The notes under the pieces are model-generated. The model saw nothing but the letters and a program-made list of their open reading frames with translations, had not been told where the DNA came from and ran no database searches. From positions 1-20,317 of the IMG/VR virus record IMGVR_UViG_3300035661_000377: a stretch of DNA of 20,317 bases. One strand, written 5' to 3'. A program made the position numbers and the translations under genes. Positions within the stretch are counted from its first letter, which is position 1. Each line of letters starts with the position of its first letter. Positions 7,621-19,134 of this stretch are shown here, one piece after another. The stretch comes from a virus.

Positions 7621-7871
7621 CCCTGCACGAGCGGCTCGACACCCGATTCAATCTCCAGAACGCCCTCACCGCCCTGGCCCTGGCCGGTGGCCTTTTCGCG
7701 TGGGCCATGCGGATGGAAGCCCGCATGTCGGTGGTCGAGCAGGCCCAGCGCGTGCAGTGCGAGATCGACAAGCGCCAGGACATGGAGAAGGACCGCCTGC
7801 AGGACACCCTTCGGTCTGATCTCAAGGACATGAACGCCAAGCTAGATCGCCTCATCGAGCGGGGAAAGTGA
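7617..7871 (+). CDS. Single-span membrane protein with coiled coil, lysis region
   Basis: An 84-residue protein from a GTG overlapping the previous stop (GTGA). Residues about 13-31 are hydrophobic (NLQNALTALALAGGLFAWAM), followed by a charged coiled coil to the end (CEIDKRQDMEKDRLQDTLRS). It resembles small holin-associated phage proteins but has the span before the coiled coil, opposite to XhlA. It may assist the holin or spanin complex. Function is inferred from position only. Confidence 0.55.
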   Translation: MTLHERLDTRFNLQNALTALALAGGLFAWAMRMEARMSVVEQAQRVQCEIDKRQDMEKDRLQDTLRSDLKDMNAKLDRLIERGK

Positions 7872-10867
7872 TGGCCGCTCCCATGGCATCCCCGCCCAAC
7901 GGTGGCCTCTGGTCGTTCACCGTGGGCAGCGGCGTGCCTGCCGAGTGGTTCGGCCCAGGCACCCCGCTGCAGCCGGTGGCGCAGGACCAGGCCATAGGGC
8001 GCGGCTGGGACTTCCCGACCGGCTACAACATCCAGACCCGGCCGAAGCCCAATGAGGGGATCACCTTCCAGGAGCTCCGTAACTTGTCGGACGGTTACGA
8101 CCTGCTGCGCCTGGTCATCGAGACCCGCAAGGACCAGATCGAGAAGCTCAGCTGGTCGATCAAAAAGCGGGGCGAGAAGGTGGTCAAGAAGTCGGCGGCG
8201 CCGGACGCGAGGATCGCCAGGTTCACCGACTTCCTGGCCTACCCCGACCTCGAGCACCCCTTCGGCACCTGGATCCGGATGCTCAGCGAGGACGTGTTCG
8301 TGCTTGACGCGCCCGCGGTCTACAACCGGCGCACCCGGGGCGGCGAGCTCTACGCCCTGGAACTGATCGACGGCGCCACCATCAAGCGGGTGCTGGATCC
8401 GACCGGCCGCACGCCCCTCGAGGGCCCGGCCTACCAGCAGATCATCAAGGGCGTCGTGGCGTGCGAGTACACCCGCAACGAGCTGCTCTACATGCCCCGC
8501 AACCCCCGGACGCACCGGGCGTTCGGGTTCAGCCCGGTCGAGCAGGTCAGCACCACGGTCAACATCGCGCTGCGCCGCCAACTGCACCAGCTGAGCTACT
8601 ACACCGACGGCAACACCCCGAACCTTATTTTCGGCGTGCCCAAGGAGTGGAACCCCGACCACATCAAGAAGTTCCAGGAGTGGTGGGACAGCTTGATGTC
8701 CGGCAACAGCGCCATGCGGTCGAAGGCCCGGTTCGTCCCCGGCGACGTGAAGCCGATGGATACCAAGGAACACGCCCTCAAGGACGATTACGACGAATGG
8801 CTGGCGCGCATCGTCTGTTTCGCGTTCTCCATCCCGGCCACCGCCCTGGTCAAGGAAACCAACCGGGCCACAGCCCAGACCGTCCAGAAGGCGGCCCTGA
8901 GCGAGGGCCTGGCGCCCGTGATGATGTGGGTCAAGGCCCTGATGGACCGGATCCTCCGGGACTGCTTCGGCGCGCCGGATCTGGAGTTCGCCTGGAGCGA
9001 CGAGCAGAGCATCGAGCCCCTGGTGCAGGCGCAGATCGACGACCTGGACGTGAAGAACAGGATCCGGGACATCAACGAGTGCCGGGAGGCCCGTGGGATG
9101 GAAGCCCTCTCTCCGGAGGAACTGGAAGCCCGGAAGCCAGTGCCGCCGCCGTCCCCCTTTGGTGCTGGCGAAGACGCTCCTCCGAGCGGGAAACCCACGG
9201 CTGACAAGCCGCCCGTCCCCAGAGAAGAGAAGCCCGCGGCCACTGAGAAGCTGGCCAAGGCCGCCAAGGTCATGAAGCCCATCAACCGCGACCGGAAGAG
9301 CCTGCAGAAGTTGGAGGCCAAGCTCAAGAAGGTGACCGCTGCCTTTCTCAAGGAGCAGGTCCGCCCCATCGCCGAGGCCCTGGCCGCGGCCATGCCGCCC
9401 ACCGCGGAGAAGATGGCCAAGATGTCCGACGACGAGGCCAAGCAACTACTGGAGGCCTCGAACATCGACTGGCACGAGCTGGGCGACGACCTGGAACCCA
9501 TCCTGGCAGCCATCGCCCAGGACGGCGTAGCTCAGGGTCTGGCCCAGGTGGGCGCCACCACCACCGCCGACCTGCTGGATCAGGTCAACACACGCGCCGT
9601 GGCCTGGGCGGAGCAGCACTCTGCCGACCTGGTCACCAAGCTCGCCGCCACCACCAGGGACCGCCTCCGGGGCGACCTGGCCGCGGGCATCGAGCTGGGC
9701 ATGAGCGCCGCCGACATCGCCGATGTGATCGCTGCCGACTATGGGTTCAGCGAGGAACGCGCCGAGTTGATCGCCCGCACCGAGCGCGCCTTCGCCGACA
9801 TCAAGGGCAACCAGATGGCCTATGCCGCCTCGGGTGTGGTGGGTGGCCTGCAGTGGATCGTCGCCAACGAGGGCGACGACAAGGTCTGCGAGGACTGCGA
9901 ACAGAACGATGGCGCGGTGGTCCCGATGGACCCCGAGACCGGAGAGGCCACCGAGGCCTTCCCCAGCGGGGACACCGCCGCCCCGGCCCACCCCGACTGT
10001 GTGCTACCGGGCACGCTGGTAACGGCCGCTGGCGTCTCGAAGTACTTCGAACGACGGTTTGAAGGGGAGATCGTCCGTATTCTCATCCAGGGCCAGGACG
10101 CGCTCTCCGTCACACCAAATCACCCAATACTGACGCGGCGCGGCTGGGTTGCGGCGCGCGAAATCCAGGAGGGTGAGGACGTGTTCCTTGCTCCTGATCC
10201 AGCGGCCCTCGCCCGGGCCTGCAACCCAGACAACCACCACGTGGAATCCCGCATCGAGGAAATGGCGCGTGCGCTTCATGTGTCGGGCGGCGTGACGACC
10301 GTAAGCATGCCATCCACCACCGAAGACTTCCACGGCGATGGACTCCTCGACCAGGATGTCCGCGTTATATCGGCCGACTGCGGCTTGGCATCTGGCCCGG
10401 AGCCCGGCGGCGAGGAACAAATCCCGCAGAACCACCTCCTGATCACTGCCGATGATTTGGAGCGCTTCGCGCGTGGCGGCGACACGCTCACGGTGAATCT
10501 GGGACTGCCTCTTCCCACGGACAGCCTCATGGGCTTTGGCCGCCCTGGCGCTTCTGGCATCGGAGGTGGCGTGGGCAGCCTGAACCAAATTGGCGGCCCC
10601 TTTGCTGCGAACAGGCAGGCCAACCCTAACCCAGGCCTTTCGCAGGCTGCTGCTATGGCATCCGGCTGCGCGCGCCAGATCGACGCTGCTCTCGCCAGCC
10701 TCGTAACGCCGGTGAAGGTCCTGCAAATCGTCAAGGGAGAACCATTTGTGGGCCACGTTTTCAACCTCCAAACAGAGGGCGGGTGGTATCTCGCCAACTC
10801 CATCATAACCCACAACTGCCGTTGCGACCTATTACCAGTTCTTACAGACGAAGGAGAGGAGTCATGA
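7871..10867 (+). CDS. Portal protein fused to Mu F-like head protein, interrupted by an intein
   Basis: Residue numbers count from the GTG at 7868; ATG 7871 is preferred because GGGGAAA lies six bases upstream. Residues about 55-430 form a portal domain (LRNLSDGYDLLRLVIETRKD, then DKIEK-type helices and HRAFGFSPVEQV, and a C-terminal wing with IVCFAFSIPATAL). A Pro-rich linker follows (about 430-460), then helical sequence and a Mu F-like minor head domain (about 610-710; GFSEERAELIARTERAFADI, then DDKVCEDCEQNDG and HPD-C). The HP-x-CRC motif that ends this domain is split: an intein occupies residues 711-983, and C984-R-C resumes. Splicing would give a mature protein of about 725 residues. 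The portal forms the DNA gate of the head; the Mu F part is a head component near it. Portal-MuF fusions are known. The stop overlaps the next ATG. Confidence 0.9.
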   Translation: MAAPMASPPNGGLWSFTVGSGVPAEWFGPGTPLQPVAQDQAIGRGWDFPTGYNIQTRPKPNEGITFQELRNLSDGYDLLRLVIETRKDQIEKLSWSIKKRGEKVVKKSAAPDARIARFTDFLAYPDLEHPFGTWIRMLSEDVFVLDAPAVYNRRTRGGELYALELIDGATIKRVLDPTGRTPLEGPAYQQIIKGVVACEYTRNELLYMPRNPRTHRAFGFSPVEQVSTTVNIALRRQLHQLSYYTDGNTPNLIFGVPKEWNPDHIKKFQEWWDSLMSGNSAMRSKARFVPGDVKPMDTKEHALKDDYDEWLARIVCFAFSIPATALVKETNRATAQTVQKAALSEGLAPVMMWVKALMDRILRDCFGAPDLEFAWSDEQSIEPLVQAQIDDLDVKNRIRDINECREARGMEALSPEELEARKPVPPPSPFGAGEDAPPSGKPTADKPPVPREEKPAATEKLAKAAKVMKPINRDRKSLQKLEAKLKKVTAAFLKEQVRPIAEALAAAMPPTAEKMAKMSDDEAKQLLEASNIDWHELGDDLEPILAAIAQDGVAQGLAQVGATTTADLLDQVNTRAVAWAEQHSADLVTKLAATTRDRLRGDLAAGIELGMSAADIADVIAADYGFSEERAELIARTERAFADIKGNQMAYAASGVVGGLQWIVANEGDDKVCEDCEQNDGAVVPMDPETGEATEAFPSGDTAAPAHPDCVLPGTLVTAAGVSKYFERRFEGEIVRILIQGQDALSVTPNHPILTRRGWVAAREIQEGEDVFLAPDPAALARACNPDNHHVESRIEEMARALHVSGGVTTVSMPSTTEDFHGDGLLDQDVRVISADCGLASGPEPGGEEQIPQNHLLITADDLERFARGGDTLTVNLGLPLPTDSLMGFGRPGASGIGGGVGSLNQIGGPFAANRQANPNPGLSQAAAMASGCARQIDAALASLVTPVKVLQIVKGEPFVGHVFNLQTEGGWYLANSIITHNCRCDLLPVLTDEGEES
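10004..10756 (-). CDS. Antisense Vsr-like (EDxHD-type) homing endonuclease inside the intein
   Basis: A 250-residue protein on the minus strand, nested wholly within intein DNA. GTG at 10756-10754 is the likely start, with a perfect GGAGGT seven bases upstream (10764-10769); an upstream in-frame GTG at 10813 would add only shadow of the intein end. Residues 6-50 read as a helix-turn-helix (FSLDDLQDLHRRYEAGESSV, then DLARAAGCHSSSLRKAW), followed by a basic helical linker. Residues 105-215 form a Vsr-like nuclease core: RYNADILVEESIAVEVFGGG (129-148) with Asp133 and Glu143, WHAYGRH with His150 and His155, then FHVVVVWVAGPGEG and YWVIWCDGE. I recognise the 'AVEhFGG-x-WH-x-x-GRHAAR...hhhVWV...YWhI' pattern from stand-alone homing nucleases. 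Its TAG lies one codon after the intein's first Val. It uses the same triplets as the intein, read in reverse. Confidence 0.8.
   Translation of the reverse strand: MAHKWFSLDDLQDLHRRYEAGESSVDLARAAGCHSSSLRKAWVRVGLPVRSKGAANLVQAAHATSDARSARAAKAHEAVRGKRQSQIHRERVAATREALQIIGSDQEVVLRDLFLAAGLRARCQAAVGRYNADILVEESIAVEVFGGGWHAYGRHAARHMKRTRHFLDAGFHVVVVWVAGPGEGRWIRSKEHVLTLLDFARRNPAAPRQYWVIWCDGERVLALDENTDDLPFKPSFEVLRDASGRYQRAR
10764..10769 (-). promoter_or_regulatory. Shine-Dalgarno site of the antisense endonuclease
   Basis: On the minus strand GGAGGT stands seven bases before the GTG at 10756. The same bases on the plus strand (ACCTCC) lie in the Asn-Leu-Gln codons of intein block F. A TATGAT, resembling a -10 box, lies upstream on the minus strand at 10807-10802, but no good -35 box accompanies it. 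Confidence 0.65.
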
Positions 10868-16025: not shown

Positions 16026-16796
16026 ATGGCCCAGCCGCTTTTCGGGACGGGTCTTGCGACCCTGACCCCCACCCTTTCCGGCGCCCAGACCCCCATCGTG
16101 GTCGCGGTGCTGGAGGACATCAGCCTCGACGTCTCCGCCAAGATCGTCGACCTCATCGGCAACCTGCAGGTGGCCGTCGACAAGGCCAAGGCGGAAGTGA
16201 AGTGGGCCGGCAAGTTCAAGACCGGCTACTTCGCCGGCGGCCTGATCGCCGCGATCCTCAGCGGCAGCACCATCGCCGCGGGCAGCCAGCAGCCGATTTT
16301 CGGCGAGACCTTCACCCTGGCGGGGACCAGCTACACCACCACCAAGGGCGCGCTCACCATCGCCGGCACCGCGGGCGACCTGGGCGTGTTCGACACCACG
16401 GCCAACAAGTTCCTGACCGCCGTCGCCTCCGCCCCGGCTGCCGGCCAGTACGTGCCCGCCACCAGCGCCGGCCTGCTGACCTTCGCCGCGGCCGACACTG
16501 GCCACGTCATGCAGGTCTCCTACCTCTACACCGCCAGCAGCACCGGCACCACGATCACCTACAACAACCAGTACATGGGCACGAACACCACCTTCGCCTT
16601 CCGGCTGTTCAACAACTACCAGGCCGCGGCGGGCGGGGCGAACGTGGCAGCGGCGGCCGGGCTCTACCTGCCGGTGGTGACCATCCCCAAGCTCTCGCTG
16701 GCCTTCAAAAACGCCGGGTTCATGGAAAAGAACGTGGACTTCGAGTGCTCTGCCAACGCGGCCGGCCAGGTCGCCCAGATCTACACCGGGAACTAG
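16026..16796 (+). CDS. Major tail tube protein
   Basis: A 256-residue protein three bases after the previous stop. The N-terminus (TPIVVAVLEDISLDVSAKIV) and the end (PVVTIPKLSLAFKNAGFMEK, then VDFECSANAAGQVAQIY) have the 'ED-hShDxs' and 'hPxhxhsFKxxGFxxxxhxFExxAd' pattern of siphovirus tail tube proteins. The middle (about 95-180) is a Thr/Ala/Gly-rich stretch that may be an inserted Ig-like surface domain. It is followed by chaperone genes and the tape measure, the standard tail order. The protein stacks as rings to form the tube. Confidence 0.8.
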   Translation: MAQPLFGTGLATLTPTLSGAQTPIVVAVLEDISLDVSAKIVDLIGNLQVAVDKAKAEVKWAGKFKTGYFAGGLIAAILSGSTIAAGSQQPIFGETFTLAGTSYTTTKGALTIAGTAGDLGVFDTTANKFLTAVASAPAAGQYVPATSAGLLTFAAADTGHVMQVSYLYTASSTGTTITYNNQYMGTNTTFAFRLFNNYQAAAGGANVAAAAGLYLPVVTIPKLSLAFKNAGFMEKNVDFECSANAAGQVAQIYTGN

Positions 16797-16799
16797 CCC

Positions 16800-17048
16800 A
16801 TGAACCTCACCCCCCTCACCTACGGCCAGGTCAAGGCCAACAAGGCCGCCTGTGACCTGATGACCGCTCCGGATCTCACCTATGACCAGCGCCTGGAGGC
16901 GGCCGTCGACTTCCTGCATGTGTCCGATCCCGCCCTGGACGTCGACGCCATAGCGCCCAGTGCGATCCTTGCCGCGGCCCAGGACCTCTACCGGACCACG
17001 TTCTACCGCCCGGAAGAGCCCGCTCCAGTTCAAACACCGAACCCCTGA
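16800..17048 (+). CDS. Tail assembly chaperone (G-like)
   Basis: An 82-residue protein starting at ATG 16800 and ending in TGA 17046-17048. Text: MNLTPLTYGQVKANKAACDL and YDQRLEAAVDFLHVSDPALD, rich in helices, ending in a polar Pro-rich tail (EEPAPVQTPNP). It lies between the tail tube and tape measure genes, where gpG and gpGT are found, and is followed in the minus-one frame by a T-like segment without a normal start. It would bind the tape measure during tail assembly. Confidence 0.75.
   Translation: MNLTPLTYGQVKANKAACDLMTAPDLTYDQRLEAAVDFLHVSDPALDVDAIAPSAILAAAQDLYRTTFYRPEEPAPVQTPNP
17042..17048 (+). promoter_or_regulatory. Candidate minus-one frameshift site CCCCTGA
   Basis: The last sense codon of the G-like gene is CCC, preceded by C and followed by its TGA stop. 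Slipping back one base re-pairs the Pro tRNA perfectly with CCC (17042-17044), and reading continues with CTG-ATC-TGG in the T frame. Slippage at a slow-to-decode stop is a plausible mechanism. The same CTG overlaps the stop (CTGA) and could alternatively be a rare start codon. Confidence 0.5.
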
Positions 17049-17275
17049 TCTGGAGCCAGACGACGGGGCTCATCGTCACAGCCACGGGGTGGACCATCCA
17101 GGAACTCTACGCCACCCCTTGGCCGGAAGTGCAGGACCTCCTGGACTACCTGGAAGATAACCCCCCCGTCCAGCGCATGGTCGCCGCCTATCTGAAGGTG
17201 GGGGAGCACCAGCAGGAGGAGCACGTGGTCATGAACAAGGAAGAGCTTGAGGCATTCCTGAGGACCCACCAGTGA
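17045..17275 (+). CDS. Tail assembly chaperone second frame (T-like extension)
   Basis: This minus-one frame encodes 76 residues: LIWSQTTGLIVTATGWTIQE, then LYATPWPEVQDLLDYLEDNP, PVQRMVAAYLKVGEHQQEEH and VVMNKEELEAFLRTHQ. The 'GWTxxExxxxPWPxVxxLLxYLxxxPPVxxMVAAYL' pattern is what T-like chaperone extensions of siphoviruses show. No ATG, GTG or TTG precedes the conserved part, so it must be reached by frameshifting from the G-like gene (giving a fusion of about 158 residues) or by an unusual CTG start. It ends with GTGA overlapping the tape measure start. Confidence 0.7.
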   Translation: MIWSQTTGLIVTATGWTIQELYATPWPEVQDLLDYLEDNPPVQRMVAAYLKVGEHQQEEHVVMNKEELEAFLRTHQ

Positions 17276-19134
17276 GCGACGAGAACATCCAGGTATCCAT
17301 CACCGCCCAGATCCAGGACCTGCTGACGGGCCTAGGGAAGGCGCAGGAAAGCGTGAAGGAAGCCACCGAGGGGATGACCGGGTCGATCTCTGGCCTGGCC
17401 AAGACCTTCGAGGAGATGGGTGGGGCGGCGGTCCTCATGGCCGGGGTCGGCCTGGCCATGGAAGGCCTCAGCAAGGGCGTGGAATACGTGCAGGAGGCGG
17501 TCCGCGAAACCAACGAGCTGGCCGAATCGTTCCAGGATCTCCGCTATGCCACCATGGCCAGCGTCGAGCAGCTGAACACCTACACCATGGCCATCGAAAT
17601 GGATGGCGGCAAGGTCGGCGACCTCGAGCACCTGATGGTCGGCATGCAGCGCGGGATCAAGGCCAACAGCGAGGCCCTGGTCGCCAACGGCGTGGCCTCC
17701 AGCGAGGCGGCGCTCAAGGGTCTCAGCTTTGAGGAATACCTCGCCCGGGTGTCCAAGATCGCCGACGAGATGGCGACGCCCACCGACCGGGAGCAATTCC
17801 TGATCCAGGCCCTGGGTCGGTCTGGCGCCACCGCTGGCCAGCAGCTCAAGGAGTTCGTGGAGCACCTCGAGAAGGCCCGGGGAATCTCCGAGAAGGGCGG
17901 CATCATCACCGACCAATCCATCGAGCGGATGGAGGAGACAAAGGCCGCCACTGCCCGGCTGGAGATCGCCCAGCAGAAGTACGCGGCCAGCGTGAGCAGC
18001 TGGGCCAACTCCATCGGGAACTGGTGGCGCAATGCCCACGCAGCCTGGTTGGAGAACGAGACCGACCTGGCCGAGGTGAACCATCTGATCCAGGCCGGCC
18101 TGATCAACAACATCCGGTACGGGCAGAGTCTGAAGGACCTGGTTCCGGAGGTCGCCAAAATCCGCGACATGTGGCGGGAGATCGACGCCTCCAGCTCCGA
18201 CGTGGGCGTTCATAACGGGCCCAAGCCGGGCACCCTGCACGACAAGGAGGCTCCCAAGAAGGAGAAGCCCACCGTCGACCCGCAGATCGCCTACGAGATG
18301 GACGTCGCCAATGACCTCCAGGAGATCAAGGCCAACCAGGAGAAGGAGTTCGCGAAAATCCGGGAGGCCGGCCTGAAGGAATGGAACACGCAGCAGACCG
18401 CCCAGGCCAAGGGCGCGCTCGCGGTCGAGCTGAACACCGCCAAGGACATGGAGGAGGAGAAGAAGAACGCGGAGAAGCGGGCCCTGGAGATCCGCGAGAA
18501 GAACCTCCTCGAATGGAACCTCAAGCAGCAGCGGATGCTCGCCCTCCAGGAGAACTCGTACCGGGACTTCCTCAACGGAATGACCCAGGGCTGGGGGCAG
18601 AGCATCCAGTCCATGCTGCACGGCCAGATGAGCCTTTCCCAGGGGTTCAAGGGCGCCCTGCAGCAGATGGAGAGCCAGACCGAGATGAGCCTGATCAACA
18701 TGGGGTTGAACTGGCTCAAGGCCGCAGCGCTCCAGGCCCTCATCGGCAAGGAGAGCCACGCCACCCAGATCATGACCGACGCCAAAGGGGCCGCGGCCGG
18801 GGCCTACAATGCCACCGTCGGCATCCCCTACGTGGGGCCATTCCTCGCCCCGGCGGCGGCGGCCGTCGCTTTTGCCGGCGTCATGGCCTTCGCCGAGGGC
18901 GGCTGGGACCGCGTCCCTTCCGACCAGGTGGCCATGATCCACAAGAACGAGATGGTGCTTCCCGCCCACATCGCGGAACCGGTCCGCCAGATGGCCGCGG
19001 CCGGGGGTGGCGGGGGAATTCAGCTGCACGTCCAAGCAATGGATGCCAAGTCCTTCCACAGCTACCTCAGCCAGCACCAGGGGGCCCTGGCCCAGGTCCT
19101 GCAGACCATCGCGCGGAACGGGAGGAAGTCGTGA
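17272..19134 (+). CDS. Tail tape measure protein
   Basis: A 620-residue protein from a GTG overlapping the previous stop. Long helices dominate; near the N-terminus a Gly/Ala/Met-rich hydrophobic segment is visible (GGAAVLMAGVGLAMEGLSKG), a Lys/Glu/Ala-rich coiled coil fills about 340-430, and a second hydrophobic segment lies near 520-550 (PYVGPFLAPAAAAVAFAGVM). The end carries FAEGGWDRVPSDQVAMIHKN and EMVLPAHIAEPVRQM, the 'FAxGGhxxxPxxhxhhHxxEhVLP' signature at the C-terminus of tape measure proteins. At about 0.15 nm per residue this suggests a tail near 90 nm, an estimate from general knowledge. Confidence 0.9.
   Translation: MSDENIQVSITAQIQDLLTGLGKAQESVKEATEGMTGSISGLAKTFEEMGGAAVLMAGVGLAMEGLSKGVEYVQEAVRETNELAESFQDLRYATMASVEQLNTYTMAIEMDGGKVGDLEHLMVGMQRGIKANSEALVANGVASSEAALKGLSFEEYLARVSKIADEMATPTDREQFLIQALGRSGATAGQQLKEFVEHLEKARGISEKGGIITDQSIERMEETKAATARLEIAQQKYAASVSSWANSIGNWWRNAHAAWLENETDLAEVNHLIQAGLINNIRYGQSLKDLVPEVAKIRDMWREIDASSSDVGVHNGPKPGTLHDKEAPKKEKPTVDPQIAYEMDVANDLQEIKANQEKEFAKIREAGLKEWNTQQTAQAKGALAVELNTAKDMEEEKKNAEKRALEIREKNLLEWNLKQQRMLALQENSYRDFLNGMTQGWGQSIQSMLHGQMSLSQGFKGALQQMESQTEMSLINMGLNWLKAAALQALIGKESHATQIMTDAKGAAAGAYNATVGIPYVGPFLAPAAAAVAFAGVMAFAEGGWDRVPSDQVAMIHKNEMVLPAHIAEPVRQMAAAGGGGGIQLHVQAMDAKSFHSYLSQHQGALAQVLQTIARNGRKS

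Follow-up and report, generated by a model that had tools for sequence, protein, structure and literature searches.

Our analysis provides strong evidence that two overlapping reading frames of a viral contig, here called G and T, together encode a tail assembly chaperone pair like G/GT of lambda. With high probability T is entered by a -1 slip of the ribosome on the heptamer C_CCG_GAA, a slip that we infer from the frames and their conservation, the heptamer, its spacing, a covarying stem and relatives that lack a slip site at the stop codon, all of them observed directly. The whole contig (IMGVR_UViG_3300035661_000377, 20,317 bp) is called the window below. Its nearest cellular relatives are located in Geothrix and Holophagaceae genomes (6 of 77 family genomes), and its host is therefore probably a Geothrix-like acidobacterium. 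The features discussed are compiled in Table 1.

Table 1. Features at the G/T junction of the window and in the adjoining genes.
Feature	Position	Strand	Basis or remark
Gene preceding G, located where a major tail protein is expected	16026..16796	+	PHROG 8234, unknown function, E 6.7e-29
G-like ORF (0 frame), short version (82 aa) of a putative tail assembly chaperone	16800..17048	+	conserved
Proposed slippery heptamer C_CCG_GAA (0 frame CCG GAA, codons 71-72; -1 frame CCC GGA)	17009..17015	+	invariant, in phase
T segment, extension in the -1 frame with 86 codons past the slip and a TGA at 17273-17275	17015..17275	+	conserved
Spacer, 6 nt	17016..17021	+	equal length in aligned close relatives
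Stem-loop 3' of the heptamer	17022..17056	+	covariation; RNAalifold
C_CCC_TGA at the 0-frame stop, site of the preliminary description, rejected as slip site	17042..17048	+	0 frame of L076 ends before it
Tail tape measure gene after T, GTG start	17272..19134	+	PHROG 2854, E 2.8e-18

Reading frames and chaperone identity

G starts with an ATG and ends with the TGA at 17046-17048. The T frame, -1 relative to G, is open from 16886 to 17275, and its stop codon shares bases with the GTG that begins the tape measure gene. Three traits of G/GT-type pairs are found at this locus: a small ORF (G) placed between the gene in the major tail position and the tape measure gene, a second segment without a start codon that overlaps it in the -1 frame, and a slippery heptamer, C_CCG_GAA, that lies in phase within the overlap. 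The preliminary description of the window, made from its letters alone, had called T coding, had noticed that no ATG, GTG or TTG precedes its conserved part and had read the end of G as AAC CCC TGA with a preceding C. All of this was borne out: over 20 distinct loci share a conserved T translation, no ATG, GTG or TTG occurs in the T frame from 17009 to the motif GLIVTATGW, and G ends as described.

In a single sequence, a gene split into G and T by a sequencing error or by a recent frameshift mutation in the contig would look identical. The relatives have already refuted such a scenario, to which we assign next to no probability: the same -1 arrangement recurs in over 25 distinct loci that come from separate assemblies, among them the genome record of Geothrix campi SG10 (L075). 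In three outgroups (L068, L069 and L073) the 0 frame runs without a stop up to the conserved T core. Both frames are open there for 49-73 nt counted from the heptamer start.

The chaperone function is likewise inferred, and the identity rests on the position before the tape measure gene together with a near-threshold match of a distant relative, L029, whose G matched Phage_TAC_7 just under the curated cut-off (E 7.4e-5). Pfam and PHROG scans gave no match for the window's own G and T, a tblastn search of 50,697 phage records gave none for T from L005 and L029, and Foldseek returned nothing at E <= 0.001 for the G model in PDB and BFVD. The gene upstream of G was assigned as the major tail gene by position only. 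G is predicted to fold into a helical domain up to about residue 69 with a flexible tail behind it, so that a slip at codons 71-72 would fall at the start of the linker.

A conserved putative slippery heptamer

C_CCG_GAA is invariant and in phase in 15 of 15 Geothrix/Holophagaceae-type sequences (window included), which are related and hence not independent. DNA alignment columns 12-20, GCCCGGAAG, show no variation across these 15 close relatives. In the window's genes GAA accounts for 25% of the Glu codons and CCG for 44% of those for Pro, so that the invariance of CCCGGAA is not predicted by coding alone. It is the sole well re-pairing in-phase slip site common to every member of the close group. 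The motif is no strict XXXYYYZ heptamer and relies on G:U re-pairing of the Glu-tRNA; 30 nt lie between it and the stop codon of G. The preliminary description, according to which the junction differs from the usual heptamer slip sites, had overlooked this site.

More distant relatives carry other heptamers at the homologous junction, namely G_GGG_GAA (L029, L062-L064, L066-L069, L073 and L083), GGGGGAC (L070), A_AAA_AAA (L025) and GGGAAAA (L084), and the T frame follows in all of them. One outgroup sequence, L065, reads GGGCGAC at 2459-2465 where its relatives carry GGGGGAA. L077, whose context shows neither a G-like frame nor the heptamer, was left out as a probable chance match.

The substitution pattern across the junction was computed on the equal-length group members only. 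Before the heptamer, the third positions of the 0 frame vary most (0.555 vs 0.325 and 0.361). From the heptamer to the stop codon, conservation is highest at first positions of 0-frame codons, which are second positions of -1-frame codons (0.138 vs 0.338 and 0.331), a pattern as expected where both frames code. Past the G stop, variation is highest at -1-frame third positions (0.303). Judged by these values, the change in pattern is located at the heptamer and not at the stop codon.

In the proposed mechanism, most ribosomes would read G through to its TGA, and a minority, probably slowed by the stem-loop, would shift back by one base on C_CCG_GAA, with the Pro-tRNA moving from CCG to CCC and the Glu-tRNA from GAA to GGA. 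Reading in the -1 frame would continue as AGA GCC CGC TCC AGT, and the predicted fusion protein would comprise about 158 aa with the junction FYRPE-RARSSSNTEPLIW (also given as FYRPE-RARSSSNTEPLIWSQ). It would contain -1-frame peptide encoded upstream of CCCCTGA, e.g. SSSNTEPLIWSQ. The corresponding peptide of Geothrix campi SG10, SSSSDEPLNWSR, could exist only with a slip upstream of CCCCTGA. Correcting the most likely slip position therefore also changes which peptide or which mutation would test the frameshift.

The stop codon of G as a slip or start site

The preliminary description had proposed a one-base slippage between G and T. The -1 frameshift as such is supported by our data, the site it had favoured, CCCCTGA, is not. 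According to that proposal the Pro-tRNA slips by -1 at the stop codon on C_CCC_TGA, with the junction TPNP-LIWSQ; re-pairing from CCC to CCC would be perfect, and slipping can be promoted where a stop codon occupies the A site. CCCCTGA is also well kept, being present in 14 of the 15 close relatives and serving as the 0-frame stop in 13 of them, a conservation that dual coding can equally explain (NP-stop in the 0 frame, EPLNW in the -1 frame). Two relatives speak against the proposal. A TAG closes G of L076 15 nt ahead of the TGA in CCCCTGA, so that 0-frame ribosomes never reach the motif, yet T is open in the -1 frame. L014 has CTC TAG at the end of G, without a run of C. Taken at face value, both sequences rule out the stop-codon site for themselves, and although each is a single contig in which an assembly error is possible, the outgroups independently argue the same. 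CCCCTGA is absent not only from L014 but also from L025, L029 and most outgroups, yet T stays in the -1 frame. In L029, L062, L064, L066 and L067, for example, G ends in other contexts 7-28 nt past the heptamer start and T still follows in the -1 frame. A slip at the stop codon is thus largely refuted by L076 and L014, and we regard it as very unlikely.

The same relatives bear on the second suggestion made earlier, a separate T protein produced by re-initiation at the CTG that overlaps the G stop. The resemblance of CTGA to the ATGA, GTGA and TTGA overlaps, which the preliminary description had read elsewhere in the window, speaks for it. The codon itself is not kept, however, and reads CTA in L014, TTA in L029 and ATA in L025. 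Furthermore, no Shine-Dalgarno-like sequence is visible just upstream in the window, and the -1 frame is under coding constraint already upstream of the CTG (SSS.EP is conserved). Re-initiation was not borne out and has to be considered highly improbable.

The window's other in-phase candidate, a slip on G_AAC_CCC (17039-17045), has a re-pairing score comparable to that of C_CCG_GAA; it was rejected, being lost in L014 and lying behind the stop in L076.

A downstream stem-loop

The arms of the stem-loop that follows C_CCG_GAA are GCTCCAG (17022-17028) and CTGGAGC (17050-17056) in the window, and GCTCCAGTTC with GAACTGGAGC in many group members. The window's own stem is short, with 7 bp and a 21-nt loop, and the stop codon of G sits inside this loop. 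On 15 distinct sequences, 96% of the cells are paired and 9 cells are changed on both sides, with the arms lying within coding sequence; slid controls were paired at 13-52%. None of 500 shuffles reached the observed pairing or covariation score, and since the shuffles ignore relatedness this result is read as support and not as a probability. RNAalifold recovered the same helix. Folds of the 50 nt past the site rank, at the median, at the 3.5th percentile of windows from the same locus. At this length the window is a poor example (52nd percentile), but its 59-nt fold is strong (z -3.85). Most outgroups, e.g. L029, L066 and L073, have a hairpin 5-9 nt 3' of the heptamer. It seems very doubtful that the stop-enclosing stem-loop with C_CCC_TGA in its loop forms a second element, which would affect termination or add a low level of extra slipping.

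Comparison with known frameshift systems

Many tailed phages make two versions of their tail chaperone by a one-letter slip of the ribosome. Xu, Hendrix and Duda reportedly described a wider set of lambda G/GT-like tail assembly chaperone frameshifts in 2004. The junction of the window very probably represents an ordinary -1 programmed frameshift of this lambda G/GT kind in Geothrix-like Acidobacteriota phages. As in lambda (PMC5009743), a small gene before the tape measure gene would be extended C-terminally by a -1 shift near its 3' end, and in both cases the second frame has no start codon; the heptamers differ, being G_GGA_AAG in lambda and C_CCG_GAA in the window. P2-like phages have no conserved stem-loop (PMC3091744), whereas the window's heptamer has one 3' of it.

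The closest match to the heptamers comes from the PRFect study (PMC10885494), which lists the slippery motifs of annotated SEA-PHAGES frameshifts and whose training set consists of tail assembly chaperones. In these data all of about a thousand 'fivetwo' motifs are GGGGGAA and CCCGGAA is the commonest 'threetwotwo' form, and G:U pairing at the second codon is invoked for both. GGGGGAA and CCCGGAA occur exactly so here, in the same kind of gene, and the mean distance from site to stop is similar (26 nt vs 30 nt in the window). Because both motifs have already been described for tail chaperones, the junction would belong to a known kind. The PRFect data stem from annotated SEA-PHAGES genomes; our data, in contrast, add Geothrix-like Acidobacteriota phages, in which both heptamers occur at one homologous junction as part of a naturally occurring series of candidate slip sites (G_GGG_GAA, C_CCG_GAA, A_AAA_AAA and GGGAAAA). 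This series fits the suggestion made with PRFect that CCCGGAA works like GGGGGAA via G:U re-pairing of the Glu-tRNA.

Listeria phage PSA uses a +1 frameshift at CCC_UGA (PMC5009743), and G of the window likewise ends in CCC UGA. PSA, however, shifts by +1 at the stop, whereas the frame of T in the window is -1 and its relatives do not all keep the stop-codon site. A PSA-like +1 slip at CCC_UGA was rejected on account of the frame of T.

An antisense nuclease frame opposite an intein

Elsewhere in the window, the portal-MuF gene (7868-10867, + strand) contains an intein. Opposite this intein, a 269-aa ORF (10004-10813, - strand) matches REase_MTES_1575 (Vsr-like) with an E value of 1e-4, below the curated cut-off. 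Relatives of the nuclease are encoded by 46 viral contigs (relatives labelled L086-L130), and the arrangement is conserved in distant phages. For all 29 relatives checked, the nuclease match runs antisense to a long open frame, and this antisense frame matches an intein splicing domain in all eight that were scanned, most of them adjoining a Mu_F domain. In six loci with 36-47% GC, one antisense frame is stop-free over the whole nuclease ORF (237-300 codons), and the other two carry 6-42 stops. Our sequence data suggest that these inteins form a family with the homing endonuclease gene on the strand opposite to them. No account of an intein with its homing endonuclease in antisense turned up in literature titles and abstracts, among which few subscription papers were covered. 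What came closest was an HNH that lies on the same strand but out of frame in an insertion of a phage methylase, and this insertion is not an intein (PMC11855218). The antisense endonuclease looks more novel than the G/T frameshift. In one relative, the intein-bearing MuF protein (L130:2359-4590, - strand) also has a C-terminal match to an ADP-ribosyltransferase exoenzyme domain (PF03496, E 1.4e-10).
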